Source of the DNA: Pseudofrankia sp. DC12
Lineage (GTDB): Bacteria > Actinomycetota > Actinomycetes > Frankiales > Frankiaceae
Length of the DNA stretch: 64,000 nucleotides
Reading direction: 5' to 3'
NCBI RefSeq assembly: GCF_000966285.1
Contig: NZ_KQ031391.1
Coordinates: 124,001 to 188,000, forward strand
The position numbers were made by a program, and so were the translations under genes. Of this stretch, positions 2,961 through 57,692 are shown piece after piece (positions within the stretch are counted from its first letter, which is position 1; the number at the start of each line of letters is the position of its first letter). Under the pieces are notes generated by a model. That model was not told the origin of the DNA and did no database searches. It saw only the letters and a program-made list of their open reading frames with translations.

Positions 2961-2971
2961 TCCCCCCGCCG

Positions 2972-3436: not shown

Positions 3437-3458
3437 GCATGAAGTTTACCTGGTCGAC

Positions 3459-3497: not shown

Positions 3498-3526
3498 ATC
3501 GATCTAGTCGACTAAAGGGAGACGGC

Positions 3527-4224: not shown

Positions 4225-4239
4225 ACCTAAGCTTGTCGT

Positions 4240-5613
4240 TTAACTTGCCTGGCTCTCAGGGCTTGCGGCTGTTGATCTGTCTGTGGTCTTCCCGACCGGT
4301 TGGGTGATCGCTTGTCGTCGGTTGGCGCGGCCGGGTGGGCGTCCGGGGCCGGGTCGGGTGGGTTTCGGTGCGCGGGCCGGAAGCGGTGTCTTCGGGCGGA
4401 GGTTCCGAAATCCCCTGCGGACACGGGCTGGGGTGAGTCGTCCTGGCGCGGCGGGTCGCTCCCAGGGGTGGCGTAGGTCGGTGGTGAGCGCGCGGGCGAG
4501 CCGGAGCTGGGTGTAGGCGGCCAGCACCAGCCAGGTCCAGCGGTCCGCCGCCGCGGGGTCGCGCAGTCTCGGGGCGGTCCAGCCGAGCGTCTGCTTGAGC
4601 AGGCGGAAGGTGTGTTCGAGGTCGAAGCGGCGCAGGAAGGCCTGCCACCAGCGGTCCACCTGTGTCGGGTTGGCGCCGGTGGTCGAGCACCACAGCCACA
4701 GCGGTTTCGGGTTGCGTTCGCCGGGCAGCCGTTCGACGGCGAGGCGGATGAGGGTGCCTTCGAGGATCGGTAGCCCTCCGACGTGTGTTTCCCAGGCTGC
4801 GCGGCGAGTCAGTCTGGGGTGCAGCCGGTCCCAGGCGGTCGCGGCCGCCTGCCCGTAGCGGGCGGTGTCGGTGCTGGTGGTGGCGGCCGGGGCGGGCCAG
4901 CTGGACGGGTCGGCCAGGCGGAACTCGGGGCCGTGGCGTGGTGGGCGGCCGTCGGCCTTCGGCGGCCGTGGTGGCACGGGTAGTCGCAAGACCCGGTCGG
5001 ACCGTAGCCGGCCGCACAGCGCAACGGGCTGGTCGGCCAGCAGCCAGGCCAGCCGGGTGACGTCGTAGCCGGCGTCGCAGACGACCGGGGTCACCGGTCC
5101 TGTGGTGGCCGGCGCCGATGAGCCGGCCGACCAGCTCGCGTAGCTGGCGGGCGGTGACCTCGGTGGCGTCATCGTCGGGACCGAGGCGCACGGCGTCCAG
5201 TGGGGCCGTCCACGATGTCCGGCCTGGTTCCAGGGCGGCGATGAACGAGTAGGGCCACCCTGGGATGAGCTGGGCGTTGCCTCGCCCGCGGCCGTAGGTG
5301 TGGCAGAACAGCCGCTGCGGGCTGGTCGCCGCGTCCGGGCGCAGCCATGGGCTGACATCGACCCCGAGCACGAGGCGCCCGTCCGCCGCCCGCGGCAGCG
5401 GCAGCCCGGCCAGCGCACGGCGCAGACGACCCACCTCGAGGCGGCCGTGGTTGACCGCGTCGTACAACGCGCCATGCCCCCGACGGTGCTCGGCCACCAG
5501 CGACAGGCCGACCAGCGTGCGCACAGGCCCTTCCGCACACAACACCGCGTCCGCCAGCTCGAACAACGCGTCCCCTCGCCGGGTCAGGGTGCCGTACAGC
5601 TCCCGAGCCGGGT
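4240..5613 (-). pseudogene. DDE transposase, main part (exon 2), frameshifted
   Basis: The frame opens RELYGTLTRRGDALFELAD and runs through EHRRGHGALYDA, LVLGVDVSPWLRPD and GWPYSFIAALEPGRTSW. It then changes frame near a run of four G at 5087-5090 and continues CDAGYDVTRLAWLLADQPV, STDTARYG, DLEHTFRLLKQTLGW and GRLTPARVRRGFRN. This matches a large actinobacterial IS4/IS701-like transposase family. One extra base explains the frame change. The N terminus is interrupted by the group II intron; the missing first codons are at 7534-7586. With both changes the protein is inactive unless the frame is restored. Confidence 0.8.
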
Positions 5614-5680
5614 AGCCGGCGGGAGTCTCACCCGCCGGCCCCCACAGATCCGGACGTGAGCCTCTCGACTCATCCGGCTC
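5614..5680 (-). ncRNA. Group II intron domains V and VI
   Basis: On the minus strand 5680-5645 reads GAGCCGGATGAGTCGAGAGG, then CTCACGTCCGGATCTG. This is the conserved catalytic domain V hairpin with its GAGCCGGATGAG / CTCACGTCCGGATC pairing. Next comes domain VI (5644-5614), a GGCCGGCGGG / CCCGCCGGC hairpin ending CTACCC, which supplies the branch-point A. The reverse transcriptase stop (5672-5670) lies inside domain V. Confidence 0.8.
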
Positions 5681-6977
5681 GTGCTGTCCTACCGACCGCC
5701 AGCGGTTGCTGCCAGTGCGCGAACAGTCCCGGGTCGCGGCGACGTACCTCCGCGAGGAACCGTAGCGACCGGCGCCACCGCCGTCGGAACCGCCTGTATT
5801 TGCGTTGCAGCCATCGCGCCAGGTAGGCGTCGATCAGGCGGAGGGTCGGAGCCAACCGAGACGGTGTAAACGCACCGTAGTAGTTGATCCAACCCCTGAT
5901 CAGCGGATTGATTCTCGCTGCCAGGTCCTGGAGAGTCCCGGCCGTGCGCCGATGCAACCTCCACCGGCGTATCTGGCGGCGTAGCCGTTTGGCATTCCTG
6001 TCGCTGATCGCGGGAGTGAAACCGACGAACAGTGCCCCGTCCCGGCGGCGAACCGTCCGGGCATGGAACGTGTACCCAAGGAAGTCGAAGCCCGTCGGCC
6101 CGTCCCAGGGTTTCCTCCGTCCGTCGTCCGCGCAGTAAACGACCTGGGTCTTGGACTCGTTCAGTTCCAAGCCACATTCCGCCAGCCGGCCGCGTATATC
6201 CGCCAGCACCCTGCGAGCCTGCTGCTCGCTGGTGCAGTGCACGACCACATCGTCACTGAACCGCTCGAACAGGACACCCGGAAATTCCCGGATCATCCAG
6301 GTGTCGAACGCATAGTGAAGATAGATGTTAGCCAGCAATGGTGACACAGGCGACCCCTGCGGGCATCCCCGTGTCCGTTCTTCCCGGGTCCCGTCCGCTC
6401 GGACCAGGGGAGCCCTCAGCCAGCGCTCCACATACAGCCCGACCCATCGGGTATCCCAGTCGAGGTGCCGGTGCACCGCCGCCATCAGCTTATCCCACGG
6501 CACGCTGTCGAAGAACGCCCGAATATCCAGGTCGATGACCCAGTCGTTCTTCCAGCACCGCGTACGTGCGGCCGCGACCGCGTCCAGCGGCGAGCGCCCT
6601 GGCCGGTACCCGTAGGAGTCCCGATGGAACATCGGCTCCACTCGCGGGTCCAGGACCAGCACGGCCACCGTCTGCGCGACCCGATCCGCCACGGTCGGCA
6701 CCGCCAACACGCGCGAGCCACCCTCCGGCTTCGGTATCACCACCTCACGCAACGGCGACGGGAAGTAGGTACCCGACGACATCCGATTCCACGTCTTGTA
6801 CAGGTTGTCTTTAAGCCTGCTCTCGAACGTGGCGATCGACGTCCCGTCGACTCCCGCCGCACCCTTGTTGGCCCGGACTCTCCCAAAAGCCTCCACGAAC
6901 AGCCGCTTGTCAATGTCAAACGGTTTCGGCTGTGACACGCCGACCGGCTCCTCCCGCATCCAACGGTTGACCGACAC
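5670..6977 (-). CDS. ltrA: Group II intron reverse transcriptase/maturase
   Basis: A 435-residue intron-encoded protein. RT blocks are in order: NKGAAGVDG (~38-46), REVVIPKPEGGSRVLAVPTV (~77-96), SYGYRPGRSPLDAV (~121-134), DLDIRAFFDSV (~149-159) and GCPQGSPVSPLLANIYL (~204-220). The maturase (GIIM) part contains INPLIRGWINYYGAF (~360). No HNH endonuclease domain follows, so mobility would depend on RT and reverse splicing only. The catalytic box reads FSDD (240-243) where most such enzymes have YADD. Both aspartates are kept, but the Y-to-F and A-to-S changes could affect activity. The protein would help its own intron splice and retrotranspose. Confidence 0.9.
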   Translation of the reverse strand: MSVNRWMREEPVGVSQPKPFDIDKRLFVEAFGRVRANKGAAGVDGTSIATFESRLKDNLYKTWNRMSSGTYFPSPLREVVIPKPEGGSRVLAVPTVADRVAQTVAVLVLDPRVEPMFHRDSYGYRPGRSPLDAVAAARTRCWKNDWVIDLDIRAFFDSVPWDKLMAAVHRHLDWDTRWVGLYVERWLRAPLVRADGTREERTRGCPQGSPVSPLLANIYLHYAFDTWMIREFPGVLFERFSDDVVVHCTSEQQARRVLADIRGRLAECGLELNESKTQVVYCADDGRRKPWDGPTGFDFLGYTFHARTVRRRDGALFVGFTPAISDRNAKRLRRQIRRWRLHRRTAGTLQDLAARINPLIRGWINYYGAFTPSRLAPTLRLIDAYLARWLQRKYRRFRRRWRRSLRFLAEVRRRDPGLFAHWQQPLAVGRTARAG

Positions 6978-7533
6978 ATTGTCACCGGACAGCCCGCCCC
7001 CTTCGCTCCACCCCCATTACAGGAGTCTCCGCGCTACTACGAGGCGGTCCGCCCCTTCCGTTTCCACCTTCGGTACTCTGTCCTCACGGATTCCGCCGCT
7101 TGGAGTTCTCCCTCACCCACGCCATACTCGACGCGAGACGTGGCATACGGAAAGTTCCCACGTTCCACACGGAAGCCCGGACCGGGCTCGCGCCACCTGC
7201 ATGCCGGACGCCGTCTGGGCAGTAGACGGGTAACCCCCAGACTCATCCCGAAGCCGTTTCACTGCCCCGGTTCTGACGCCATCCACATCTTTTCGACACT
7301 TCAACGGTGGTTCGCTCGCGCTCGCCTTCCCGGCCCACACCTGACACGATCACCGCCGCGCCTTTTCCGTCACGCTCACGACCCCAGCTGTTCGGCTGAC
7401 GCCGCTGACGGCGGTTTGTGACCACCACCCGCATGGCGATCACGGAGGGCCAACCTCCATCTCCCGTGCAGCACCCCTCCAAAAGATCACCGTCTACCTC
7501 AGATCGGCGTCTCCCTTCGAGTTCGTGGCGCAA

Positions 7534-7586
7534 CGAAACGCCGATAACACGGCAAGGTGCTCGACGTGCGCTGCCTCGTGCGGCAA
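7534..7586 (-). pseudogene. Transposase exon 1 upstream of the group II intron
   Basis: TTG 7586 follows GGAGGAG (7596-7590) at good spacing. It encodes LPHEAAHVEHLAVLSAFR, which ends at the proposed 5' splice site. Spliced to 5613 it gives the missing N terminus of the IS transposase. The stretch 7620-7724 between this exon and the right IS end holds only the expected leader. Confidence 0.6.
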
Positions 7587-43745: not shown

Positions 43746-43990
43746 CTAGCCCAGGCCGACGAGTCCACCCTGGTTCCTGCGGTGCCCCCAGCTCGGGTTT
43801 CTCCCACGCGAGACGCAGAACCAGCTCGCGGATCTCCCGGCGGACCGGTGGCCGCCCGGGCGAGGCCCGCCGACAGGTCCACCCACGGGCGAGGAGCTTA
43901 CGGTGCCACCGCAACACCGTGGCCGGAGTGACAAGGAACGAACCCCACCGAGCCCGGGGCAGCAGCCGGGACAACGCCTCTCAACGGCTC
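43746..43990 (-). pseudogene. Integrase-core (IS481/IS3-like) transposase fragment
   Basis: Minus-strand SRLLPRARWGSFLVTPATVL, RWHRKLLARGWTCRR, SPGRPPVRREIRELVLRLAW, EKPELG and, after a frame change, HRRNQGGLVGLG match the region before the integrase core of IS481-like transposases (FLVTPATLLRWHR.LV, GRPP...E...LVLRLA.ENP.WG). The rve catalytic domain is absent. It ends where the IclR gene ends. Confidence 0.65.
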
Positions 43991-44766
43991 GTCCGCCGGG
44001 CGACAGCGCGGTCGCCGGTGAGCCGGGCGGCGACCAGGTCGGCGGTCTCCGCGACGAGGCCGACGATCCTGTCCCGAGTGGCGGCTGTGACCTCCGCCGC
44101 GGGGTAGGTGACGGCGACGGAGGCAGCGGGCCGTCCGTCGGGGGTGAGCACGGGTACCGCCACGGAAGCAAAACCGGGTGTGACCTCACCGTCCTCCTCC
44201 GCGTGACCACGTCGGCGCACGTCAGCGAGCACCCGCCGTAGAGCGGACAGAGACCGTGGCCCCACGTCGTGGCGCAGCACGAAGGCGTCCCGGTCGGGGA
44301 ACAGCGCCCGCACCTGGGCCGCGGGCAGGGCCGCGAGCATGGCACGGCCGCTTGCGGTGAGGTGGGCGGGGAGCCGGACCCCGACATCGGTGATGAGCGG
44401 AGGGCGTCGTGGCGCCCGCTCTTCGATGACATAGACGACCTCCCGCCCGTGCAGCACCGCCAGGTGGGCCGTGTGCCCCGCCCGGTCGACGAGGTTGGCC
44501 ACCGGGACTCGGGCAAAGCGCTGAAGCGGAGCCTGCCGCGAGTAACCGCTTCCGAGCTCGTAGGCGCTCAGCCCCAGGCTGTATCGACGTTCGTCAGGAA
44601 GGTGCACGACGAATCCCTCAGCCATCAGCGTGGCGAGCAGATGGTAGGTGGTGGAGCGCGGGAGGTTCAGGTCCCGGCTGATCGTGGCGGCGGCCACCGG
44701 CTGGGGCTGGCGGCTCAGGTGGCGCAGGATCGCGAGCACCTGCGCCGCGGCCGGGACGTTGCTCAC
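43981..44766 (-). CDS. IclR-family regulator of the hut operon
   Basis: A 261-residue IclR protein. The winged helix (QVLAILRHLSRQPQPVAAAT, SRDLNLPRSTTYHLLATLM, ~8-48) is followed by the effector domain (GHTAHLAVLHGREVVYVIEE, LTASGRAMLAALP, GFASVAVPVLTPDGRPAASV). It is divergent from hutH with 91 bp between. That gap contains a TGTCTG-N6-CAGACA palindrome, the probable operator. It probably responds to urocanate or histidine, as hut regulators do, but the ligand is inferred. Confidence 0.88.
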   Translation of the reverse strand: MSNVPAAAQVLAILRHLSRQPQPVAAATISRDLNLPRSTTYHLLATLMAEGFVVHLPDERRYSLGLSAYELGSGYSRQAPLQRFARVPVANLVDRAGHTAHLAVLHGREVVYVIEERAPRRPPLITDVGVRLPAHLTASGRAMLAALPAAQVRALFPDRDAFVLRHDVGPRSLSALRRVLADVRRRGHAEEDGEVTPGFASVAVPVLTPDGRPAASVAVTYPAAEVTAATRDRIVGLVAETADLVAARLTGDRAVARRTSR

Positions 44767-44857: not shown

Positions 44858-46396
44858 GTGGAGGACGTAACTGTCGGAGTGGCGGGGCTGACCCAGGACG
44901 ACGTCGTGTCCGTGGCCCGCGGCGACGCCCGGGTCCAGCTCTCGGCCGAGGCGCTCGAGGCGATCGCCGCGGGCCGCGCGGTGATCGATGCCCTGGCCGC
45001 CGATGCCGAACCCCACTATGGCGTCTCCACCGGCTTCGGCGCGCTGGCGACCCGGCCCATCCCGGTGGGGTCGCGAGCCCAGCTGCAACGCAGCCTGGTC
45101 CGCTCGCACGCCGCAGGCTCGGGACCCGAGGTCGAGCGGGAGGTCGTCCGGGCGATGATGCTGCTGCGCCTGTCCACCCTGGCCACGGGCCGGACCGGCG
45201 TCCGCCCGTCGGTGGCGCGGACCTACGCGGACCTCCTCAACGCCGGCATCACGCCCGTCGTCCGCGAGTACGGCTCGCTCGGCTGCTCCGGGGACCTCGC
45301 ACCGCTCGCGCACTGCGCTCTGGCGGCGGTCGGCGAGGGCGAGGTTCGCGACGCCGGCGGTGCGCTGGTCCCCGCCGCCGCCGCGCTCGCGGCAACCGGG
45401 ATCGAGCCATTGGTGCTGCGGGAGAAGGAGGGCCTCGCCCTCATCAACGGCACCGACGGGATGCTCGGCATGTTGGCCCTGGCCTGCCACGACCTCACCC
45501 TCCTGCTGCGCGCCGCGGACATCTCCGCGGCGATGAGCATCGAGGCGCTGCTCGGGACCGATGCCGCGTTCGTCCCCGAACTGCAGGCGCTTCGACCGCA
45601 CCCGGGGCAGGCGGCGAGCGCCGAGAACCTCCGCGCCCTGTTGTCCGGGTCGCCGATCATGGCCAGCCACCGGAGCCCGGACTGCGCCCAGGTTCAGGAC
45701 GCCTACTCGCTGCGGTGCACTCCGCAGGTGCACGGCGCGGCCCGGGACACCGTGACCCACGCGCGCCTCGTCGCCTCCCGCGAGCTCGCCAGCGCCGTCG
45801 ACAACCCCGTGCTCACGCCTGACGGCCGCCTGAAGAGCAACGGGAACTTCCACGGAGCGCCCGTGGCCTACGTCCTGGACTTCCTCGCCATCGTCACCGC
45901 AGATGTCGCGTCGATGTCCGAGCGCAGGACCGATCGCCTGCTCGATGTGCATCGCAGCCAGGGCCTTCCGGCGTTCCTTGCCGACGATCCCGGCGTCGAC
46001 TCCGGACTGATGATCGCCCAGTACACCCAGGCCGGCATCGTCTGCGAGCTGAGGCGACTGGCCACGCCGGCCTCGGTCGACTCGATCCCCTCGAGTGCTC
46101 TGCAGGAGGACCACGTCTCGATGGGGTGGTCGGCCGCGCGCAAGCTGCGCCGTTCACTCGACGGCCTGACCCGAGTGGTCGCCATCGAGATCCTGACGGC
46201 CGCTCGGGCGCTCGATCTGCGCGCCCCGCTGGCTCCCGCCGCCGGAACCGGGGCTGTCCGCGGCCTCGTGCGGACCGTCGTCGGAGGGCCTGGACCGGAC
46301 CGCTACCTGTCTCCCGAGATCGAGGCTGTCGTGGGGCTGGTGGCGTCCGGAAGTGCCCTGACCGCGGCCGATGCCGCCTGCGGCCCGCTCATCTGA
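44858..46396 (+). CDS. hutH: Histidine ammonia-lyase
   Basis: A 512-residue histidase that removes ammonia from L-histidine to give urocanate. GTG 44858 is chosen because family similarity begins there (GLTQDDVVSVARGDARVQLS); the open frame upstream overlaps the divergent regulator. Conserved parts: PHYGVSTGFG (Tyr54), the MIO triad in GSLGCSGDLAPLAHCAL (Cys143-Ser-Gly), QDAYSLRCTPQVHGAARD, SRELASAVDNPVLTPDG and LQEDHVSMG. The triad has Cys instead of the textbook Ala, a variant I also expect in other actinobacterial histidases; Ser and Gly, which form most of the MIO ring, are kept. First gene of the hut operon. Confidence 0.92.
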   Translation: MEDVTVGVAGLTQDDVVSVARGDARVQLSAEALEAIAAGRAVIDALAADAEPHYGVSTGFGALATRPIPVGSRAQLQRSLVRSHAAGSGPEVEREVVRAMMLLRLSTLATGRTGVRPSVARTYADLLNAGITPVVREYGSLGCSGDLAPLAHCALAAVGEGEVRDAGGALVPAAAALAATGIEPLVLREKEGLALINGTDGMLGMLALACHDLTLLLRAADISAAMSIEALLGTDAAFVPELQALRPHPGQAASAENLRALLSGSPIMASHRSPDCAQVQDAYSLRCTPQVHGAARDTVTHARLVASRELASAVDNPVLTPDGRLKSNGNFHGAPVAYVLDFLAIVTADVASMSERRTDRLLDVHRSQGLPAFLADDPGVDSGLMIAQYTQAGIVCELRRLATPASVDSIPSSALQEDHVSMGWSAARKLRRSLDGLTRVVAIEILTAARALDLRAPLAPAAGTGAVRGLVRTVVGGPGPDRYLSPEIEAVVGLVASGSALTAADAACGPLI

Positions 46397-46463
46397 ACCT
46401 CGTCTCACCTGAGCCTCGTCCGCTGACCCCCGCCGTCCGGCCCGTCACCCAGAGGAGCCCCCG

Positions 46464-48122
46464 ATGTCAGGCCCCCGCCCCGTGCGGTCCCCCCGCGGCA
46501 CCACGCTGACCGCCCGGTCCTGGCAGACCGAGGCGCCCCTGCGGATGCTGCAGAACAACCTCGACCCCGAGGTCGCGGAGCGACCCGACGATCTCGTCGT
46601 CTATGGCGGCACCGGAAGGGCCGCGCGAAGCTGGGACGCCTTCGACGCCATGATCCGGACGCTGACGACGCTGCGCGAGGACGAGACGATGCTCGTCCAG
46701 TCGGGCAAGCCGGTGGGCGTGCTGCGGACCCACGAGTGGGCCCCGCGAGTGCTGATCGCCAACTCCAACCTCGTGGGCGACTGGTCCACCTGGCCGGAGT
46801 TCCGGCGGTTGGAGGCGCTGGGGCTCACCATGTACGGGCAGATGACGGCGGGATCCTGGATGTACATCGGGACCCAGGGCATCCTGCAGGGCACCTACGA
46901 GACGTTTGCCGCCGTGGCCGACAAGCGGTTCGGCGGGACCCTCGCCGGGACGCTCACCCTCACCGGTGGCTGCGGCGGGATGGGCGGCGCGCAGCCGCTG
47001 GCGGTCACCCTCAACGGCGGGGTCTGCCTCATCGTCGACGTCGACCGCTCGCGGCTCCAGCGCCGGGCGGAGCACCGTTACCTCGACGAGGTCGCGCCGG
47101 ACCTCGACACCGCCATCGCCACTGTCCTGCGGGCGAAGGCGGACCGCCGGGCGTTGTCCGTAGGGGTCACCGGCAACTGCGCCGAGGTCTTCCCGGAACT
47201 GCTGCGCCACGGGGTCGCCGTCGACATCGTCACCGACCAGACCAGCGCGCACGACCCGCTCGCCTACCTCCCCGAGGGCGTCGCCGTCGAGGACTGGCAC
47301 GACCTCGCCGAGCGCAAGCCCGAGGAGTTCACCGACCGGGCCCGCGCCTCCATGGCCAAGCACGTGCAGGCGATGGTCGAGTTCGCCGACGCGGGCGCGG
47401 AGGTGTTCGACTACGGCAACTCGATCCGGGACGAGGCCCGCCTCGGCGGGTACTCGCGGGCCTTCGAGTTCCCCGGCTTCGTGCCCGCCTACATCCGGCC
47501 GCTGTTCTGCGAGGGCAAGGGACCGTTCCGCTGGGTGGCGCTGTCCGGCGACCCGGCCGACATCCACGCCACCGACGAGGCCGTCCTGAAGCTCTTCCCC
47601 GACGACGACCGGCTCCAGCGATGGATGCGGGGAGCGCGGGAGCGCATCGCCTTCCAGGGACTCCCGGCCCGCATCTGCTGGCTCGGCTACGGCGAGCGCG
47701 ATCGCGCCGGGGCGAGGTTCAACGAGATGGTGGCCTCCGGCGAGCTCACGGCCCCCATCGTGATCGGCCGCGACCACCTCGACACCGGCTCGGTCGCCTC
47801 CCCGTACCGCGAGACCGAGTCGATGCTCGACGGCTCGGACGCCATCGCCGACTGGCCGCTGCTCAACGCGCTGGTGAACACCTCGTCGGGAGCCAGCTGG
47901 GTCTCGATCCACCACGGCGGCGGGGTCGGCATCGGCCGGTCCCTGCACGCCGGCCAGGTCTCGGTGGCCGATGGCACGGAGCTGGCCCGGCAGAAGCTCG
48001 AGCGGGTCCTGACCAACGACCCCGGGACGGGCATCCTCCGCCACGCCGACGCCGGTTACGGCAGAGCCGACGACGTCGCCCGCGCCGCCGGCGTGCGGAT
48101 ACCCATGCGGGAGGGCGAGTGA
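46464..48122 (+). CDS. hutU: Urocanate hydratase
   Basis: A 552-residue urocanase of normal length that converts urocanate to 4-imidazolone-5-propionate with NAD as a prosthetic group. Typical segments are [127 protein letters not shown] and [18 protein letters not shown]. It starts at ATG 46464 after AGAGGAGCC and overlaps the next gene by 4 bp (GTGA). Confidence 0.95.
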
Positions 48123-49297
48123 CCTTCGAGGCCATGTGGGGTGACCTCGGACCGGTCGGTCGCGCGGCCGCCACCGGCGGGTACCGGAGGTTCGCCTGGA
48201 CGTCCGAGGACAGCACGCTGCGGCACTGGTTCACCGGAGAGGCCACGTCCCGCGGTCTCGACGTCGTCACCGACCGCGCCGGCAACGTGTGGGCCTGGTG
48301 GGGAAACCCCGACGCCGGGACCCCGGGGGTCGTCGTCGGTTCCCATCTCGACTCTGTGCCCGACGGCGGCGCGTTCGACGGGCCGCTCGGCGTGGTATCC
48401 GCCTTCGCCGCCGTGGACCAGCTGCGGGCCAGCGATTTCCGACCGGCGGTACCGCTGGGTATCGTCTGCTTCTCCGACGAGGAAGGCGCCCGGTTCGGGA
48501 TCGCCTGCGCCGGCTCGCGCCTCATCACCGGAGCCCTTCCCGCCGACCGGGCCCGCGCGTTGCGCGACGGCGACGGCATCACGCTGGCCGAGGCGATGGC
48601 TCGCGGCGGCCACGACCCGCGCCACGTCGGACCGGACCCGGAAACGCTGCGGCGCATCGGGATGTTCGTCGAGCTGCATGTCGAGCAGGGCCGCGGCCTC
48701 GCCGGTCTCGGCCGCCCGGTGGCGGTGGGCTCGTCCATCTGGCCGCATGGCCGGTGGCGCCTGGATCTGGAGGGTGAGGCCAACCACGCCGGCACTACCC
48801 GGCTCGCCGACCGTCGGGACCCGATGCTCGACCTCGCACACGTCGTCACGGCCGCGCGGGCATCGGCCGGCATCGTGGGGTGCGTGGCCACCGTCGGGAA
48901 GGTGCGGGTGATCCCGAACGGGGTCAACGCGATCCCGTCCCGGGTCACCGCGTGGCTCGACGCCCGCGGCCCGGTGGAGCACGACGTTCGTTCCGTCGTC
49001 AACGCCGTCGCGACAGCCGCGGGCCGCGATCCGGTCGAGGAGTCCTTCACGGCCGCGACGGATTTCGATGCCGCGCTGGTCGGACGGGTGGCGAAACTGC
49101 TCGGCGACGCCCCTGTGTTGGGCACCGGCGCCGGTCACGACGCCGGAATCCTGGCCCAGGCGGGAATCCCCACAGCGATGTTGTTCGTGCGCAACCCCAC
49201 CGGCGTCTCCCACTCCCCGGCCGAGTATGCCGAGACCGCCGACTGCCTCGCGGGGGTCGACGCTCTGGCGCGGGTCCTCGAGGACGTGGCCGGCTGA
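48119..49297 (+). CDS. M20-family amidohydrolase (allantoate amidohydrolase-like) in the hut operon
   Basis: A 392-residue zinc amidohydrolase. GTG 48119 overlaps the hutU stop. Metal-site parts are [20 protein letters not shown] (His and bridging Asp), [18 protein letters not shown] (Glu pair), [30 protein letters not shown] and [20 protein letters not shown]. This is the allantoate amidohydrolase/N-carbamoyl-amino-acid hydrolase family, which splits N-carbamoyl or related amides. No hutG-type deformylase is found in this operon, while hutF would yield N-formyl-L-glutamate. The M20 enzyme is therefore a good candidate for the last step (formylglutamate to glutamate plus formate). That is inference from context. 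Confidence 0.85.
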
Positions 49298-49307
49298 GGC
49301 GGGCGGG

Positions 49308-50621
49308 ATGAGATGGTTCGCCGACGACGCCGTGCTGTCCACCGGCCCGGCGCGCAACGTCCTGTTCGAGGCCGCCGACGGCCGGTTCACCAGCATTCGG
49401 CCCGGCACCGAGCCGGGCGGCGCCGCCCGGCTGCCCGGCGTCGTGCTGCCCGGCTTCGCGAACGGCCACAGCCACGCCTTTCACCGCGCTCTTCGGGGGC
49501 GGACCCACGACGGCCCCAGCGACTTCTGGAGCTGGAGGCGGGCGATGTACGCCGTCGCCGGGCGGCTGGACCCGGACAGCTACCTGGCCCTCGCCCGCGC
49601 CACCTACGCCGAGATGGCGCTGGCCGGAATCACGTCGGTCGGCGAGTTCCACTACCTGCATCACGGCCGCGACGGCACTCCCTACGCCGACCCGAACGCC
49701 ATGGCGGAAGCCCTTCGCGAGGCCGCCACCGACGCCGGCATCCGGCTGACGGTCCTCGATACCTGCTACCTCGCTGGCGGTATCGGGAGCGACGGCCACA
49801 CGTCCCTGGCCGGGCCGCAGCTGCGGTTCGGTGACGGCACCGTCGGCGCCTGGGCGGAGCGGGTCGAGCTGCTCCGCGAGTCGGAGCGGATGCGGGTGGG
49901 AGTCGCGGCGCACTCGGTGCGGGCAGCGCCTCGGGAGGCCCTGCCGACCGTGGTCGCGCAGGCGCGGGGGCGGCCGTTGCACATCCACCTGTCCGAGCAG
50001 CCCGCCGAGAACAAGGCCTGCGCCCGGCTCTACGGATGCACGCCGACCGCCCTGCTCGCGGAGGCCGGCGTGCTCGGGCCCACCACCACGGCGGTCCACT
50101 CCACCCACCTGACCTCCGCCGACGTCGACCTCCTGGGCCGCTCCGGGACCACGGTCTGCCTGTGCCCTGGCACCGAGCGCGACCTCGCCGACGGCATCGG
50201 GCCGGGCGGGGCGCTGCGCGCCGCGGGTGCGCCGCTCAGTGTGGGCAGCGACCAGAACACCTTTATCGACCTGTTCGGTGAGATCCGCGGGGTGGAGGAG
50301 CACGAGCGGCTGACCTCGCTGCGGCGTGGCCATTTCGGGCAGGACCAGCTGCTGGGCTTCCTCACCGGCCATGCGGCCATCGGCTGGGATGCCGGCCGGC
50401 TCGAGGTGGGTGGCCGGGCCGATCTCGTGGCCGTGCGGCTCGACACCCCGCGTACCGCCGGGGTGGCGGCCGAGCAGATCCTGATGGCCGCGACCGCCGC
50501 GGACGTCGACACCGTCGTGGTGGACGGCCGGACCGTGGTGGCCGGCGGACAGCACGTCCTCGGCGACATCGGCCGGCTGCTCGCGGCGGCGATCTCAGCT
50601 GTGTGGGAGCATGGACGATGA
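49308..50621 (+). CDS. hutF: Formimidoylglutamate deiminase
   Basis: A 437-residue amidohydrolase-superfamily enzyme that turns N-formimidoyl-L-glutamate into N-formyl-L-glutamate and ammonia. Metal ligands lie in [18 protein letters not shown] (HxH), [15 protein letters not shown] and [17 protein letters not shown] (Asp). SFWSWR-like [10 protein letters not shown] and [13 protein letters not shown] are typical of HutF. ATG 49308 follows GGCGGGCGGG. The stop overlaps the hutI start (ATGA). Confidence 0.9.
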
Positions 50622-51787
50622 GCAGCATCCTCGTCGGTGGGATCGGTGAGCTGGTCACCAACGACTCCTCGGTCGGGGACGGGTCCCCCCTCGGCATCCT
50701 GACGGACGCCGCCGTCGTGGTAAGCGAGCGCCAGGTCCACTGGGTGGGCCGCGAGGCGGACGCCCCGGCGGCGGACCATCGCGTGGACGTCGGTGGGCGC
50801 GCGGTAATCCCCGGCTTCGTGGACTCCCACGCGCACCTCGTGTTCGACGGTGACAGGGCGGGCGAGTTCGCCGCCCGGATGGCCGGAACCCGCTACGACG
50901 GTGGCGGCATAGCCACCACCGTGGCGGCCACCCGCACGGCGACCGACGAGCGGCTGCGGACCTCGCTCACCGCGCGGATCGCGGAGATGCGCGCGCAGGG
51001 AACCACGACGGTCGAGATCAAGAGCGGCTACGGCCTCACCACCACCGAGGAGGCCCGGGCGCTGCGGCTGGCACGGGAGGTCACCCCCGAGACCACGTTC
51101 CTGGGGGCGCACGTGGTGCCACCGGGGATCGACCGGGCGGACTACGTGCGGCTGGTGTGCGGCGAGATGCTCACAGCCTGCGCCCCCTACGCGCGATGGA
51201 TCGACGTCTTCTGCGAGCCGGCCAGCCCGGCCGCGTTCGACGGCGACGAGGCACGCGTGATCCTGCTGGCGGGCAGGGGGGCTGGACTCGGCCTGCGGGT
51301 CCACGGCAACCAGCTCTCAGCCGGGCCGGGGGTTCGGCTGGCTGTCGAGCTGGGGTGCGCGAGCGTCGACCACTGCACGCACCTGACCGACGCGGACGTC
51401 GACGCGCTGGCCGGCGGGACCACTGTGGCCACGCTGCTCCCCGGCGTCGAGTTCTCCACCCGCTCGCCTTACCCCGACGCCCGGCGGCTGCTGGACGCCG
51501 GCGTGACCGTGGCGCTCGCCACCGACTGCAACCCCGGCAGCTGCTACACGTCCTCAATGCCGCTGGTGATCGCGCTGGCCGTCCGGGAGATGTTCATGAC
51601 CCCGGCCGAAGCGCTGTCCGCGGCCACCGTGGGCGGGGCACAGGCCTTGGGGCGTGACGATGTCGGCGTCCTCGCGCCCGGACGCAACGCCGACCTCACG
51701 GTGCTGGACGCCCCCAGCTACCTGCACCTGGCCTACCGTCCCGGCGTCCCGCTCGCCCGCGCACTCACTCTTTCCGGTCGGTCCTAG
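50618..51787 (+). CDS. hutI: Imidazolonepropionase
   Basis: A 389-residue amidohydrolase that opens imidazolone-5-propionate to N-formimidoyl-L-glutamate. The metal site is in [37 protein letters not shown] with SVDHCTHL, and [30 protein letters not shown] is a HutI hallmark. It is last in the operon. Its final 23 bp overlap the end of the convergent lyase gene on the other strand. Confidence 0.92.
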
Positions 51788-53207
51788 CCAGTCGGCGCAG
51801 CAGCTGTTCGGCGAGCTCGAGGTCGGCGGTGAGATCACGGTCCCCGGTGCCGCCAGGCAGCTCCGCCACCGCCGCCCAGGCGGCCTGCAGGCCTGCCGGC
51901 AACGTGGCCTCGGCGGCAGCCGGCCGGGCCCGCAGCCGGAGGCATCGGACGGCCGCGACCAGCTCTCCGGCGAGCACGGTGCGCAGCCGGATCGCTGCCT
52001 GCGCGGCCTGGGACGCGGCCAGGGAAGCGAAGCTCGCGTCCTCCTCCACCCCGCGAGACAGCGTGACCGACTGCAGGCTGGCCGGGCTGGCGAGGGCCCT
52101 TATCTCCGCCAGCGCCGAGGCGACCACATACTTGACAACCATGATCCCCGACGCCGGCGGGGTGCCGTCGCCGAGGAACGGCGCGAGGCCGGTATAGCCC
52201 GGCTCGGCCAGCATGGTGAGCCGGGCGAGCGAAAGCTGCGCCGACTGCGCCGTCGCGAGGACCGCGGCGTCCAATGCCTGAGCCAGGTAGGAGGCGTGGA
52301 AGCCGCCGTGGTGAGCGATGCCATGGGTGGCCGAGACGACCGGGTTCTCCGAGCCGGTGTTGACCATCCGGGTGACCACGTCCGCGAGCGCGGCGAGGCT
52401 GTCCAGCAGGACGCCATGCACCTGGGGCAGGCTGCGCAGCCCGAACGGGTCCTGGATCCGCCCCCCCGCCTGGGCGTCCGCGACGAGCTCACGCATGCGG
52501 ACACAGACCTGCCGCGCCCCATGGAAGGGCGTGACCACCTCTACCGCGGGAGCGAATGCCTCGATGTTCCCGGTCACGCCGACGAAGGTCAGTGCCGCGA
52601 CGACATGAGTCGCCTCCGCCAGCGCGCGCAGGTCGGCCAGCGCGAGCGCGGCATCGGCGAGCGTGGCCGCGTTGCTGGACAGGAACGGGAGGGCGTCCCC
52701 GCCGCCGACGACGACCGGACGGCGGATCGGATTCGTGGTCCTCATCTGCCCGCTGATGGCCAGGGCGGTGACGGCGAGCGCGGAGAGATCCCCCGTACCG
52801 ATGCTTCCCAGCTCTCGGACCGGTGGCAGCGCATCCAGCTGGAGCAGGTCGGCCAGGGCGTCGAGGAGATCCGGCGACGCACCGTTGCCATCCGCGGCCA
52901 GCTGGTTCAACCGCACCACCAGCATCGCCCTGACCCGCTCGGCCGAGCGCAGCAGACCGCCCGACGTGGCGTGGCTGAGGATCAGTCCCCGGGCCCCGGA
53001 CTCGGGGTCCGCGACTGTCAACATGCGGTTGGCTCCGACCCCGGTCGTACGCCCGTAGATCGGTCTCTCGGACGCGGCGGCGTTCGCGAACACCTGGGAT
53101 CGCCGAACGCGGTCGCGTGCTTCCTCTCCCACGCGCACCGGCGTGCGCCGGCGCGCGACCGCAACGATGTCGTCGATCCTGAGACTGCTGCCGTCGATCT
53201 CGATCAT
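51765..53207 (-). CDS. Histidase-family lyase lacking the MIO triad
   Basis: A 480-residue member of the aromatic/histidine ammonia-lyase superfamily. ATG 53207 follows CTCAGGAG. Superfamily parts are intact: [13 protein letters not shown] (Tyr51), [26 protein letters not shown], and RGVEEDASF with the C-terminal Glu region. The loop that makes the MIO electrophile is not: hutH has GSLGCSGDLAPLA, while this protein has [12 protein letters not shown] (134-145), one residue shorter with the x-Ser-Gly triad lost. MIO cannot form here, so a simple amine is unlikely to be the leaving group. Ergothionase, a superfamily member reported to eliminate trimethylamine by acid/base catalysis, is a better model. 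The neighbouring betaine-type importer supports a quaternary-ammonium substrate. An inactive regulatory paralogue is the alternative. Confidence 0.8.
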
Positions 53208-53295
53208 GGCATTGCTCCTGAGCCGCCGCGGCGACAGATCATCCTGTTTCAGTCGCGAAAACTCTCGGGCGACCCCTTGGGCATCAGTGCCCTGT

Positions 53296-53340
53296 ATGGC
53301 ATCTTATCGTCCAATGGCATGCTCCTTCCACCAGATGGCA
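53296..53340. repeat. Three ATGGCA direct repeats between the lyase and the second iclR
   Basis: ATGGCAT (53296-53302), ATGGCAT (53314-53320) and ATGGCA (53335-53340) are 18 and 21 bp apart, about two helical turns. They lie in the 170-bp gap between the divergent lyase and IclR genes. A GTCGC/GCGAC inverted pair (~53255-53276) is close by. Together they may be the operator of the second IclR regulator. Confidence 0.4.
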
Positions 53341-53377
53341 GGAGTCGGGGGCTTCAGGTGGGAGGGCGTGAGGCTTC

Positions 53378-54100
53378 ATGCCGCTCGACGCTGAAGAGGA
53401 GCTCGGCATCGCCACAGGCAGCGCGTCGACTCGCACGGTGGATCGCGCCTTGCTCCTGCTCTCCGAGGTGTGCGAACAGGAGTCACTCTCCCTGTCAGAG
53501 TGCGCCCGGCGGGCCGGCCTACCAGCTAGCACCGCGCTGCGGCTGCTGCGCACGCTCGAGCGTGCCGGCTTCGTATCGCGCAACGGCGAGGGAAGCTTCG
53601 GAGCCGGCCCGCGGCTGATCCAGCTGGGTGCGATGGCTATTGGGCGTAACACCTTGGTGCGAATCGCCACGCCCGCGCTACACCGCATTGTGGCCGCCAC
53701 GGGCGAGTCGGCCTACCTTTCCATGCGCGCGCCACGCGACAGCGCCATCTACATCGCGATGGTGGAGGGCACCCACGCTGTGCGGCACACGAGCTGGATC
53801 GGCCGCACGGTGCCGCTGGCCGGGCTCGCGGTGGGGCGTGCGCTGACGGACGACGTCCCGCCGTCGGGCTACGTCGCCGAGCGCGACCGCAACGAGCCCG
53901 ACGTCACCGCCATCGCGGCACCCCTCCGGTACTCGGGAGGGATAGCGGGGGCGTTCAGCGTCCTCGGCCCGAGTTACCGCATCGACGACGACACGATGCA
54001 CGACTACGGGCGAATCGTTGCCGACGAGGCACAAATACTGAGCGCCCAGCTTGGAACACCTAACCCCCTACCGAAGGCGGAACAGGAAACAGGGACATGA
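53378..54100 (+). CDS. IclR-family regulator of the betaine importer/lyase module
   Basis: A 240-residue IclR protein: STRTVDRALLLLSEVCEQES, LSLSECARRAGLPASTALRL and LRTLERAGFVSRN form the winged helix (~15-65), and the effector domain contains ATGESAYLSMRAPRDSAIYI and IAAPLRYSGGIAGAFSVLGP. Its stop overlaps the ABC ATPase start (ATGA), so it is made together with the importer, and it is divergent from the MIO-less lyase. This placement argues that it controls both and senses the imported compound or its breakdown product. Confidence 0.88.
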   Translation: MPLDAEEELGIATGSASTRTVDRALLLLSEVCEQESLSLSECARRAGLPASTALRLLRTLERAGFVSRNGEGSFGAGPRLIQLGAMAIGRNTLVRIATPALHRIVAATGESAYLSMRAPRDSAIYIAMVEGTHAVRHTSWIGRTVPLAGLAVGRALTDDVPPSGYVAERDRNEPDVTAIAAPLRYSGGIAGAFSVLGPSYRIDDDTMHDYGRIVADEAQILSAQLGTPNPLPKAEQETGT

Positions 54101-55197
54101 TCAGATTTGACGCGGTATCGAAGCACTACCCCGACGGGACTGTCGCCGTCGATGACCTGAGCCTGGTAGCGCCCTCTGGGCAGATCACGGTGTTCGTCGG
54201 ACCGTCCGGCTGCGGGAAGACCACGAGCCTGCGAATGATCAACCGGATGATCGAGCCGACCTCCGGCTCGATCTGGATGGACGACCTCGATACGGCCGGC
54301 ATGCCCACGCACGAGCTGCGCCGCCAGATCGGCTACGTCATCCAGCACGCCGGGCTCTTTCCGCATCGCACGATCGTCGACAATGTCGCCGCGGTGCCGT
54401 TGCTGCTCGGGCACAACAAGAAACAGGCGCGAACCCGTGCCATGGAGCTCATCGAACGGGTAGGGCTGCCGGCACACTTCGCCAAGCGGTACCCCGCGCA
54501 GCTGTCGGGCGGCCAGCAGCAGCGGGTGGGGGTGGCGCGTGCCCTCGCGGCGGACCCACCGGTCATGCTCATGGACGAGCCGTTCTCCGCGGTCGACCCC
54601 GTCGTGCGCGAGCAGTTGCAAGACGAGTTCCTCCGGTTGCAGGGAGACCTCGGCAAGACCATCGTGTTCGTCACTCATGACATCGACGAAGCGGTCAAAC
54701 TGGGCGACCAGGTCGCGGTCCTCCGGGTCGGCGGGCGGCTCGCGCAGCTCGCTCCGCCGCAAGAGTTGTTGAGCCGCCCCGTCGATGCCTTTGTGGCGGG
54801 ATTCGTGGGGCGGGACCGGGGCTATCGCGCGCTCGCCTTTGCCGGCGCCGGAACGCTCTCGACCCACGCCGAGCAGACCGTCACGCTAGGCGGCCCCGTG
54901 CCCGCCGGCTCCGATGACGGCGCCTGGATCCTCGCGGTCGACGCCGCGGGCACACCGCACGGCTGGCTCAGCCTCGAACACGTGCGCGCCGGGGAAGAGA
55001 CGGTGACCGAGGAGATGCTTTACCGCGGAGGCACCCTCGCCACCCAGGGAGGAACCCTGCGGGCGGCACTCGACGCCTGCCTCTCGTCGCCGTCGGGGCG
55101 CGGTGTCGTCGTCGACGCCGGTGGCCGTCTGGTCGGCTCCGTCACGGCACGCGAAGTCCTCGATCTCATCGAGGCCCGGACGGCGACGGCATCGTGA
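54097..55197 (+). CDS. Betaine/choline-type ABC ATPase with C-terminal CBS part
   Basis: A 366-residue OpuA/OpuC/ProV-type ATPase: Walker A VGPSGCGKTTSLRMINRMIE (~35-54), QLSGGQQQRVGVARAL (~136) and Walker B VMLMDEPFSAVDPVVREQLQ. The C terminus has a CBS-like repeat (ALDACLSSPSGRGVVVDAGG, RLVGSVTAREVLDLI), which in this family senses ionic strength or regulates uptake. The NRMIEPTSG stretch is typical of the quaternary-ammonium group. It overlaps the regulator and permease genes by 4 bp. Confidence 0.9.
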   Translation: MIRFDAVSKHYPDGTVAVDDLSLVAPSGQITVFVGPSGCGKTTSLRMINRMIEPTSGSIWMDDLDTAGMPTHELRRQIGYVIQHAGLFPHRTIVDNVAAVPLLLGHNKKQARTRAMELIERVGLPAHFAKRYPAQLSGGQQQRVGVARALAADPPVMLMDEPFSAVDPVVREQLQDEFLRLQGDLGKTIVFVTHDIDEAVKLGDQVAVLRVGGRLAQLAPPQELLSRPVDAFVAGFVGRDRGYRALAFAGAGTLSTHAEQTVTLGGPVPAGSDDGAWILAVDAAGTPHGWLSLEHVRAGEETVTEEMLYRGGTLATQGGTLRAALDACLSSPSGRGVVVDAGGRLVGSVTAREVLDLIEARTATAS

Positions 55198-55892
55198 TCT
55201 CCGCGGCCGGCACCAGCTCAAGCTCTTCCCCGCTGCACTTCATCGGGTATTTCATGGACCACCGCCACCAGGACCTCGGGTGGCTGTGGTCGCACACGTG
55301 GCTCTCGGTGCTCCCGGTCGTGATCGGGCTCGCGATCGCGCTCCCACTCGGCTGGCTCGCGCGCCGTTACAGGTTCGTCTACCCGCCGTTGATCTCGTTC
55401 ACCGGCCTGCTCTACACGATCCCTTCGATCGCGCTGTTCGTGATGATCCCGCCGGTCCTCGGCCTGAGCTCACTCGACCCGATCCAGGTGCCGATCGCTC
55501 TGACCGTCTACTCGGTGGCCCTGCTGGTGCGGGTCGTGGCCGACGGGCTAGCCTCGGTGCCCGAGGAGACGCTGCAGGCCGCCAGCGCCGTCGGCTACAA
55601 GGAGCTGAGTCGCTTCTTCAAGGTGGAGCTCCCCATTGCCGTACCCGTCATCACGGCGGGCGTGCGGGTGGCGGTCGTGGCCAACGTCAGCATCGTCGCC
55701 GTCGCGGGGACGATCGGAATGTCGAATCTCGGGCAGCTGTTCACGACCGGTTTCCAGCTCTCCACCCCCACACCGTACTATCCGCCGATCGTCCTCGGGA
55801 TCGTGCTCTGTGTTCTTCTGGCCCTCGTGCTCGACGGCCTGATCCTCCTGCTGAACCGGACGTTGACTGCATGGCGGAGGGCAGCCCGATGA
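55194..55892 (+). CDS. Betaine-type ABC permease 1
   Basis: A 232-residue BPD-type permease. GTG 55194 overlaps the ATPase stop. About six membrane segments are seen, with GLLYTIPSIALFVMIPPVLG, the EAA loop VPEETLQAASAVGYKELSRF-FKVELP and VANVSIVAVAGTIGMSNLGQ. These match OpuBB/OpuCB-type permeases. It pairs with the next permease as a heterodimer. Confidence 0.9.
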   Translation: MISAAGTSSSSSPLHFIGYFMDHRHQDLGWLWSHTWLSVLPVVIGLAIALPLGWLARRYRFVYPPLISFTGLLYTIPSIALFVMIPPVLGLSSLDPIQVPIALTVYSVALLVRVVADGLASVPEETLQAASAVGYKELSRFFKVELPIAVPVITAGVRVAVVANVSIVAVAGTIGMSNLGQLFTTGFQLSTPTPYYPPIVLGIVLCVLLALVLDGLILLLNRTLTAWRRAAR

Positions 55893-56659
55893 TCATCACA
55901 AGGGTCTTCAACTGGCTCACCGACGGCGACAACTGGCAAGACAGCCACCTGAACACCGGCATTCTCACCCAGCTCGAAGCGCATATCCGGTTCACTGGGA
56001 TCGCTCTCGCCTTCGCTGTCCTGGTCGCGCTTCCCGTGGGCATGCTGATCGGCCACACCGGACGCGGCACGTGGCTGGTCTCGGCGGCCAACGCGATCCG
56101 CGCCCTTCCCACGGTGGGCGTGCTGGTTCTGCTGACCGTGATCATCGCTCCGCACTTCCACGGCCGTACGGACGTCGGGTACCTGATTCCCACCGAGATC
56201 GTGCTGGTACTGCTCGCCATACCACCGATCCTGTCGAACGCCTACGCCGGGATCGACCACGTCGCCCCGGCGGTGCGCGACGCCGCGGCGGGCATGGGCA
56301 TGACCGGTCCACAGGTTCTCTTCCAGGTCGAGCTGCCGTGCAGCCTCCCTCTTGTCTTCTCGGGACTCCGGTCGGCGACCCTTCAGGTGATCGCGACGGC
56401 GACCATCGCCTCCTACATTCCTCTCGGCGGTCTCGGGCGATTCATCTACGACGGCCTTGCGCAGCAGGACTATCCGCAGATGATCGGCGGAGGCGTGCTG
56501 GTGGCCGCTCTCGCGCTGACCACAGATCTCATTTTCGCGACAGTCCAACGTTATGCGGTCTCGCGAGGAATCACCGGACGGTTCGCCCGCGGGAGGCCGG
56601 CCGCAGCGTCGGAAGCCCAGCCGGCCGTCCTGGCGGGGTCGGAGCTGTCCAGCGCCTGA
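55889..56659 (+). CDS. Betaine-type ABC permease 2
   Basis: A 256-residue permease overlapping the previous gene (ATGA). It has IRFTGIALAFAVLVALPVGM, the conserved NAIRALPTVGVLVLLTVIIA, an EAA loop VAPAVRDAAAGMGMTGPQVL-FQVELP and ATIASYIPLGGLGRFIYDGL. The C-terminal ~30 residues are a polar tail. With permease 1 it forms the channel of an OpuC-like importer. Confidence 0.9.
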   Translation: MIITRVFNWLTDGDNWQDSHLNTGILTQLEAHIRFTGIALAFAVLVALPVGMLIGHTGRGTWLVSAANAIRALPTVGVLVLLTVIIAPHFHGRTDVGYLIPTEIVLVLLAIPPILSNAYAGIDHVAPAVRDAAAGMGMTGPQVLFQVELPCSLPLVFSGLRSATLQVIATATIASYIPLGGLGRFIYDGLAQQDYPQMIGGGVLVAALALTTDLIFATVQRYAVSRGITGRFARGRPAAASEAQPAVLAGSELSSA

Positions 56660-56723
56660 TCTCCTGCCGAACCCCTTACCGGATCAGAACGATTCGTACG
56701 CCAACGCCCCTCAGGGAGAAAAG

Positions 56724-57692
56724 ATGAAACGGAAGTTGCTCAGGTCGGCCACGGCCACGGCCGCCGTCGCCGCCGTCGCCGCCGTCGGCCTGGCGGCCTG
56801 CGGGTCGAGCGGGTCGTCGAGCTCCGGAAGCGGCTCGTCCGCCGGGAGCAGCACGACCATCGCGAGCAAGTTGATCCTCGGCGGCCCGCCGGAGTTCAAG
56901 ACCCGGGTCGACGGCGTGCCCGGCCTGGCGAAGAACTATGGCGTCACCTTCGGCAAGTTCACCGTTACCGACACGGGTGGCCCGGTCACCGTGACGGCTC
57001 TGAAGAACGGGCAGGTCGACGCGGCCGACCTGTTCACCACTGACCCCTCCATCGCGGCCAACAACTTCGTGATCCTCACCGACCCGAAGAGCAACTTCGC
57101 GGCCCAGAACATCGTGCCGGTCATCAACAAGGACAAGGCCACGGACGGTGTCAGGACGACTCTCAACAAGATCCAGGCCAAGCTCACGACGTCCGGGCTC
57201 TCGGCGCTGCTGACCAAGGTGCAGACCGACAAGCAGGACCCGGATGTGGTAGCCAAGCAATGGCTGTCCGACAACGGCCTCGCCGCCACCGGCACCGCGG
57301 CCGCAGGCGTCAGCCTGACCATCGGCTCCGCCAACTTCCCGGAGAACGTTATCCTCGCCGAGATCTACGCGGAAGGTCTCAAGGCGCAGGGCGCGTCGAT
57401 CAAGACCACGCTGGACATCGGCAGCCGGGAGAAGTACTACGCGGCGCTCAAGGACGGCTCGCTCGACCTGTTCGCCGAGTACACCGGCTCGATCCTGCAG
57501 TTCATCGAACCGACGGCCACGGCCACCAGCCCCACCGACGTGTACGCCGCGCTGGCAAAAGCCCTGCCCGCCAACCTGATCGAGCTCAACCAGGCGACCG
57601 CACAGGACAGCGACGCCATCGTCGTCACCAAGGCGACGGCGGACAAGTACCACCTCGTCTCCATCGCAGACCTGGCCAAGCCGGCTAACTGA
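56724..57692 (+). CDS. Betaine-type substrate-binding lipoprotein, circularly permuted
   Basis: A 322-residue OpuAC/OpuCC-family binding protein with signal peptide and lipobox VGLAACG (Cys26), so it is anchored outside the membrane. The two halves are in reversed order. Residues ~49-186 (LILGGPPEFKTRVDGVPGLA, QVDAADLFTTDPSIAANNFV, AQNIVPVINKDK, KLTTSGLSALLTKV) are what normally is the second half. Residues ~197-322 (LTIGSANFPENVILAEIYAE, DGSLDLFAEYTGSILQF, LVSIADLAKP) are what normally is the first half. In the usual order LAKP leads straight into the L-x-GGPPEF strand. The total length is that of one domain, so it is a permutant and not a duplication. It lies 64 bp after permease 2, after CTCAGGGAGAAAAG. 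Confidence 0.85.
   Translation: MKRKLLRSATATAAVAAVAAVGLAACGSSGSSSSGSGSSAGSSTTIASKLILGGPPEFKTRVDGVPGLAKNYGVTFGKFTVTDTGGPVTVTALKNGQVDAADLFTTDPSIAANNFVILTDPKSNFAAQNIVPVINKDKATDGVRTTLNKIQAKLTTSGLSALLTKVQTDKQDPDVVAKQWLSDNGLAATGTAAAGVSLTIGSANFPENVILAEIYAEGLKAQGASIKTTLDIGSREKYYAALKDGSLDLFAEYTGSILQFIEPTATATSPTDVYAALAKALPANLIELNQATAQDSDAIVVTKATADKYHLVSIADLAKPAN

Follow-up and report, generated by a model that had tools for sequence, protein, structure and literature searches.

A MIO-less histidase-superfamily lyase beside an OpuC-type importer and hut genes in actinobacteria: a candidate hercynine trimethylamine-lyase

We analysed a window of 64,000 nucleotides from Pseudofrankia sp. DC12 (NZ_KQ031391.1, 124,001-188,000), by which we mean that whole stretch of DNA; feature coordinates count from window position 1. 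Between a hut operon (44879-51787) and an operon encoding an IclR-type regulator and an OpuC-type ATP-binding cassette (ABC) importer (53378-57692) lies a gene (51765-53207, minus strand) for a histidase-superfamily lyase that lacks the Ala/Cys-Ser-Gly triad of the 4-methylideneimidazole-5-one (MIO) group. This MIO-less lyase family is real and widespread, its linkage to importer and hut genes is recurrent, and the partner hydratases scored are of the urocanate type. We propose, with a probability of about 0.64, that the lyase cleaves ammonium betaines independently of MIO, that the neighbouring OpuC-type system imports a trimethylated histidine, most likely hercynine (histidine betaine), and that urocanate feeds the hut enzymes. 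The lyase would take the beta-proton and expel trimethylamine by acid/base elimination; because trimethylamine leaves readily as it is, the electrophilic MIO would not be needed. The urocanate formed would be hydrated by the sole, canonical HutU and so enter the usual hut pathway, and regulation by the IclR protein is likewise putative.

We found no description of a hercynine lyase or of a hercynine-to-hut route in the open-access literature searched; the accessible part of PMC13405746 cites work on ergothionases, on the breakdown of ergothioneine sulfonate and on an ergothioneine pathway of the gut, and that of PMC7653990 cites ergothionases. If the proposal is true, the family would be a second group of amine lyases that use the histidase fold without MIO, a trimethylamine source in soil actinobacteria, and a new entry point joining ergothioneine/hercynine metabolism to histidine catabolism. 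Assaying a single member could put a name to many genes: when 84,980 species genomes were scanned, at least 581 stretches coding for a relative came up (tblastn E 1e-3 or better), and the window lyase scores below the cut-off of all 8 NCBIfam models that it matched.

The MIO-less lyase family and its kinship to ergothionase

The lyase open reading frame (480 amino acids, ATG start, TGA stop) matches PF00221 with 302 bits, compared to 605 bits for the window's own hutH. On the NCBIfam hutH model TIGR01225 (cut-off 539), the lyase fails with 243.5 bits, whereas the neighbouring hutH passes with 633.9 bits. Residues were compared in an alignment of 91 family sequences (80 loci, the window and 10 others), 5 ergothionase-like sequences and 6 histidine ammonia-lyases (HAL). 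The 80 named loci (L056-L135) are the best 80 of the at least 581 stretches, not an even sample, and are MIO-less. The MIO loop reads GTGD in 83/91 family members and GTAD in 8/91, and is one residue shorter in 91/91; the six HAL sequences read GCSGD (4) or GASGD (2). These results bear out the original prediction that the lyase keeps the histidase scaffold and has lost the MIO triad (GSIGTGDL, compared to GSLGCSGDL in hutH). The absence of the triad throughout the family, together with the low TIGR01225 score, led us to reject the assignment of the lyase as a histidine ammonia-lyase (hutH).

Seven residues (Y51, H79, T138, S178, Q252, R258, and H299) are invariant in 91/91 family members, and E388 is present in 90 (one gap). 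Among them, Y51, H79, Q252, R258, and E388 correspond to Y53, H83, Q277, R283, and E414 in HAL numbering, several of these residues also being named in the titles of PDB mutant entries. The family therefore resembles HutH in scaffold and in these five residues, and differs in the missing triad, in scores far under the hutH cut-off, and at the position of HAL Asn195, where Ser is found in 89/91 family and 5/5 ergothionase-like sequences. H299 is specific to the family, being His in 0/5 ergothionase-like and 0/6 HAL sequences. A separate HutH-strength match was found in 10/10 genomes tested, which argues that the lyase is an added entry and not a replacement hutH. The window's own genome (G000, 6.88 Mb, one contig) contains two PF00221 proteins, hutH and the lyase.

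The known enzyme most like the family is ergothionase (ergothioneine trimethylamine-lyase of Treponema denticola, 6s7j/6s7q), which shares the histidase fold, the absence of MIO, and S-x-N at the HAL Asn195 position. An AlphaFold2 model of the lyase built from 35 sequences (mean predicted local distance difference test score, pLDDT, 91.8) had ergothionase 6s7j as its best PDB match (TM 0.90, 24% identity), with HAL and aminomutases close behind. A tree was built from 17 of the 80 loci with AdmH as outgroup, the MIO and N195 columns removed, and L147 left out; another tree covered 40 of the 80 loci. The actinobacterial family formed one clade (100/100) and the ergothionase-like proteins another (100/99), and the two grouped together (96/91), an arrangement that is favoured, not proven, over alternative topologies. 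Tree and fold thus back the predicted kinship to ergothionases, but the family lies beside the ergothionase clade rather than inside it. Of the two features for which the original prediction proposed to check a model, loss of MIO was borne out, but the Lys of ergothionases was absent. At the position of 6s7j chain residue 383, where 4/5 ergothionase-like sequences have Lys, presumably in a catalytic role, 90/91 family members have Tyr (Tyr360; one gap). The loops differ as well, with GEGD in 6s7j and GxAD in the four other ergothionase-like sequences, compared to GTGD or GTAD in the family.

The importer and its linkage to the lyase and to hut genes

In 43/80 loci, an importer ATPase, a permease, and a binding protein are each found within 6.5 kb of the lyase, and at least two of these parts are in 47/80, so that the predicted partnership with a quaternary-amine-type importer proved recurrent. 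The ATPase gene is divergent from the lyase in 46 of the 48 loci where it was seen. Genes of the hut pathway were found within 10 kb in 31/80 loci, 28 of which also have the importer. Counted by genus label, importer linkage occurs in 16/24 and hut linkage in 9/24, and the predicted link to hut is accordingly present in several actinobacterial genera. Likewise, importer permeases share the region with the lyase in 15/20 regions of a class sample. These 20 regions come from 20 of the 28 family-positive genomes described below, best-scoring first, with G252 in and G210 out; G032, G303, and G104 also appear in the set of 80 named loci, as may others. Genomes contain few such genes, with 1-11 OpuAC matches across 21 genomes of 3.4-11.2 Mb and 1 or 2 urocanases in the 9 genomes searched, and the closeness of lyase, importer, and hut genes is therefore not expected by chance. 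The only OpuAC match of the window's own genome, in two halves, is the window binding protein.

The window importer has the OpuC/ProU-type set of an ATPase, two permeases, and an OpuAC binding protein, and is predicted to carry quaternary amine-type compounds. It shares this set with OpuC/ProX-type importers and HutXWV; here the set is paired with the lyase, and in the window and its nearest relatives the binding protein is permuted. The original prediction had also raised an EgtU-type importer, an option that did not survive comparison of the pocket. G244 and F293 are ergothioneine determinants of EgtU in the accessible part of the report by Zhang et al. (PMC9732360). The G244 equivalent is Phe in the window and Phe (56) or Tyr (1) in 57 linked binding proteins, and the F293 equivalent is Tyr in the window and in 57/57, so that both determinants are absent in 58/58 linked proteins including the window's. 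The 57 loci were not de-duplicated, and 12/20 unlinked regions had a usable N-terminal half for comparison. We therefore rejected an EgtU-type importer. The window protein resembles EgtU (EgtUC) as an OpuAC-family binding protein, but it is not fused to a permease and is permuted. It contains the motif PEFKTR, whose spacing would suit the EgtU E375/R379 ligand contacts, as judged by motif rather than by residue alignment of that half.

ProU-type importers of histidine exist, such as HutXWV of Sinorhizobium meliloti, and the importer could instead be a histidine carrier of this kind or a general betaine transporter, with another N-methylated histidine as the substrate of the lyase. Linkage to hut genes fits such a carrier, as does our failure to find a hercynine-specific pocket signature in the linked binding proteins, whose pocket residues also occur in several OpuAC proteins that the same genomes encode elsewhere, unlinked to the lyase. 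A histidine or betaine importer would nevertheless leave its pairing with a MIO-less lyase unexplained, and mono- and dimethylamines would presumably leave less easily without MIO. We consider this alternative improbable and prefer import of hercynine.

The window binding protein is circularly permuted, a feature absent from the original prediction: it begins with a lipoprotein-like signal peptide, followed by the C-terminal half (residues 45-187) and then the N-terminal half (199-319) of EgtUC/ProX. This order was found in 13 open reading frames, or 10 distinct loci once the double counting of three genomes is allowed for, each of them next to a lyase from the group closest to that of the window (the window, L056, L057, L058, L059, L060, L061, L063, L064, and L071). 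By contrast, 50 open reading frames in the searched loci have the usual OpuAC order, a count that was not de-duplicated and includes Paenarthrobacter aurescens (P. aurescens) twice. The cut falls near the first inter-lobe linker, where one of two hinge strands would be broken. A model of the binding protein reached a moderate pLDDT of 68.2, and its top Foldseek matches were Bacillus subtilis OpuAC, which implies that the wider family may already include proteins with the permuted order; no such precedent was found in the accessible part of PMC2861598.

Partner urocanases and the choice of substrate

A lyase that forms thiourocanate would be expected to have a thiourocanate hydratase nearby. 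We scored urocanases with the NCBIfam models TIGR01228 (urocanate hydratase, cut-off 375), NF058530 (thiourocanate hydratase, cut-off 930), and NF058531 (S-methyl thiourocanate hydratase, cut-off 880), given below in this order. The window HutU scored 894, 650, and 697, below both thiourocanate-type cut-offs. In P. aurescens TC1, the genes on the lyase side run IclR-OpuCA-CB-CB-SBP-HutU-lyase on one strand (SBP, substrate-binding protein), and its two urocanases score 866, 618, and 682 (beside hutH) and 870.5, 622, and 683 (between binding protein and lyase). Arthrobacter sp. 18067 (L120) has the same SBP-HutU-lyase order, with a HutU of 871, 619, and 683. As a positive control, the urocanase homologue that adjoins an ergothionase-like lyase of Burkholderia arboris passed NF058530 with 1050. 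A single urocanase is present in the window's own genome and in 7/8 others.

The lyase-linked and hutH-linked urocanases of P. aurescens are 95% identical. Departures were counted at 322 positions that do not vary among 15 actinobacterial HutU proteins, a reference set without the 95% identical sister and without the Paracoccus row; they number 17 for the lyase-linked protein, 14 for the hutH-linked protein, 68 for the urocanase of the Paracoccus hut operon, and 118 for the B. arboris protein. With the sister in the reference set, departures were 2/247 for P. aurescens and 68 for B. arboris, and 61/308 for the Paracoccus control. These counts alone in part reflect distance, and the types are separated by the family-model scores. 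Because the partner urocanases scored are of the urocanate type and most genomes searched have a single urocanase, urocanate, and hence hercynine, is preferred: the product of the lyase is probably urocanate and its substrate hercynine rather than ergothioneine. Of the two substrates that the original prediction had left side by side, hercynine is thus favoured by the urocanase evidence and ergothioneine, with thiolurocanate as product, disfavoured. A canonical urocanase of wider specificity may also take thiourocanate.

Ergothioneine remains the main rival to hercynine, which is the best-supported substrate on these comparisons. The lyase would then be an ergothionase, releasing trimethylamine from ergothioneine and making thiourocanate, in keeping with its nearest fold, the adjacent clade, and the presence of egtB or egtD within 10 kb in 8/80 loci. 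However, the family forms a clade of its own with H299 throughout and Tyr360 in place of Lys, its importer lacks the EgtU determinants, a second urocanase is missing from the window's own genome and 7/8 others, and the partner HutU proteins of P. aurescens and Arthrobacter are of the urocanate type, whereas in B. arboris the ergothionase-like lyase is accompanied by a hydratase of the thiourocanate type. We judge an ergothionase to be unlikely, although ahead of the other alternatives.

Several observations weigh against the hercynine proposal. Fewer than two importer parts were seen in 33/80 loci and no hut gene within reach in 49/80, some contigs ending early; among loci whose contigs extend 6.5 kb or more in both directions, importer parts were present in 35/57. 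Eight Lentzea, three Prauserella, and two Kutzneria loci have neither importer nor hut genes, and the egt linkage fits ergothioneine as well. In the tree, forcing HAL with the actinobacterial family costs 7.1 log units (approximately unbiased test, p-AU 0.053) and with the ergothionases 5.9 (p-AU 0.134). The P. aurescens lyase starts 331 bp after hutU, a distance at which co-transcription is unproven. The pocket pattern of the linked binding proteins, common to several unlinked OpuAC proteins, gives no pointer to hercynine, and OpuAC-family specificity is hard to infer, the Mycobacterium tuberculosis ProX being reported to bind polyphenols in the accessible part of PMC5894108. The window lyase itself has Lys359 where 89/91 family members have Glu (one gap). 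Codon 359 is AAG, and the 88% identical Pseudofrankia relative has Glu.

Some of these points would also fit a lyase that acts on another aromatic betaine, or a protein that is no lyase, with the hut linkage incidental or regulatory. Many family members lack importer and hut genes, some adjoin a major facilitator superfamily (MFS) transporter, three of these also with an RpiR regulator, and identity to the window lyase drops to 37% within the family. The importer and hut linkages across genus labels and the conservation of the residues used by HAL argue the other way, and we rank this alternative as the least probable.

A broader claim is that actinobacteria own a hercynine catabolic pathway of dedicated importer, MIO-less hercynine lyase, and hut enzymes, and that loci with egtA-D and a cysteine-dioxygenase-like gene may serve a desulfurisation-first breakdown of ergothioneine, in which the dioxygenase would oxidise the thione and sulfite would be lost to give hercynine, which the lyase would convert to urocanate. 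We regard this combined claim as doubtful, though less so than the alternatives weighed above. A cysteine-dioxygenase-like gene was found in 15/80 loci. Matches to the family occurred in 14/15 lyase-bearing genomes (P. aurescens had none), which is no evidence of co-occurrence, as only lyase-bearing genomes were searched and the lyase-linked type was not separated. At L037, the lyase is flanked on one side by egtA-D together with genes for a cysteine-dioxygenase-like protein, an amidohydrolase-like protein, and a LacI regulator, and on the other by the importer, IclR, hutH, and hutU genes. Biosynthesis genes (egtA-D, whole or part) accompany lyase and importer at L037, L038, L074, L080, L086, L094, L101, L102, L112, and L118, most of which also carry a cysteine-dioxygenase-like protein and a LacI regulator.

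Layout of the window, distribution of the family, and further loci

The layout foreseen in the original prediction was confirmed in both respects: the lyase gene is divergent from an IclR gene coupled to the importer by 4-bp overlaps, and it meets hutI tail to tail, with a 23-bp overlap. The IclR-type regulator (53378-54100, plus strand; PF01614/PF09339) heads the importer operon and is followed on the same strand by an OpuC/ProV-type ATPase (OpuCA, 54097-55197; TIGR01186 proV 292 bits, below the 326.6 cut-off), which overlaps it by 4 bp, permease 1 (OpuCB1, 55194-55892; PF00528), which overlaps the ATPase by 4 bp, permease 2 (OpuCB2, 55871-56659; PF00528, the frame scanned being one with a start further upstream), and the permuted OpuAC-family lipoprotein (56724-57692; EgtUC/ProX half matches). 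The OpuCB2 start at 55871 is that of the gene caller, by coding score; a start at the internal ATG of 55889 would make the gene overlap OpuCB1 by 4 bp.

The hut operon is on the plus strand and comprises hutH with an intact GCSGD triad (44879-46396), hutU, the genome's only urocanase and single PF01175 match (46482-48122), an AllC-type amidohydrolase (48119-49297; NF006770 587 bits, cut-off 372), hutF for formimidoylglutamate deiminase (49308-50621; NF006681 588 bits, cut-off 362), the frames scanned for the last two having a start further upstream, and hutI (50618-51787; TIGR01224 371.7 bits, cut-off 298), which converges on the lyase. A second IclR-type regulator (43981-44766, minus strand; PF01614 91.8 bits, PF09339 50.5 bits) is divergent from hutH. 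The order of the 12 genes from this regulator through the binding protein is kept in Pseudofrankia sp. BMG5.36, with proteins 87-96% identical, and this conservation, together with the recurrence of the lyase/importer pair across genus labels, argues that the arrangement is not due to chance. Homologues of the importer-operon IclR flank 11/80 related loci. Upstream of this gene is one imperfect inverted repeat that runs into it, and an IclR operator sought in 5 aligned upstream regions was not apparent, conservation among them being slight.

Within the window's own order, 2/35 genomes (own included) match at E 1e-50, and 42 of 393 genomes drawn from the class do so at E 1e-45 or better. By score, 28 of the 393 (29 matches of at least 181 bits) are family-like, and L032 and L033, which come next below these in score, are MIO-type. 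The motif check of the class sample considered 29 of 33 loci (L001-L004 excluded); 21 passed the open-frame filter and 2 were MIO-type, leaving 19 family members. The gene caller overlooked the lyase in at least L047, L051, L115, L119, and L120, where tblastn or open reading frames were used. Among the matches listed, the nearest named relative is that of BMG5.36, at 88%. In viral contigs, 14 pattern stretches contained no confirmed relative, and a plasmid collection searched with the lyase at E 1e-25 returned only two actinobacterial records.

Several further loci differ in their arrangement. An MFS transporter replaces the ABC importer at L073, L078, L091, L092, L107, L129, and L131, three of them being those with an RpiR regulator, and the substrate there may differ from that at importer-linked loci. 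At L143 of B. arboris (2892-7557), the thiourocanate-hydratase-type homologue immediately precedes the ergothionase-like lyase. On a Paracoccus saliphilus plasmid (L142, 7908-9596), an ergothionase-like MIO-less lyase lies right after hutI-hutH-hutG-hutU, near a tripartite ATP-independent periplasmic (TRAP) transporter; the hutU scores as a urocanate hydratase, and this lyase is another MIO-less candidate for making urocanate. P. aurescens TC1 has a third PF00221 protein (L147, 6950-8866) with the loop GSVGSSD, whose long branch lies outside the two MIO-less clades. Finally, genome G273 encodes a second lyase paralogue (L148, 7906-9546) next to an OpuAC binding protein of its own; the same strand also carries more genes of OpuC type.

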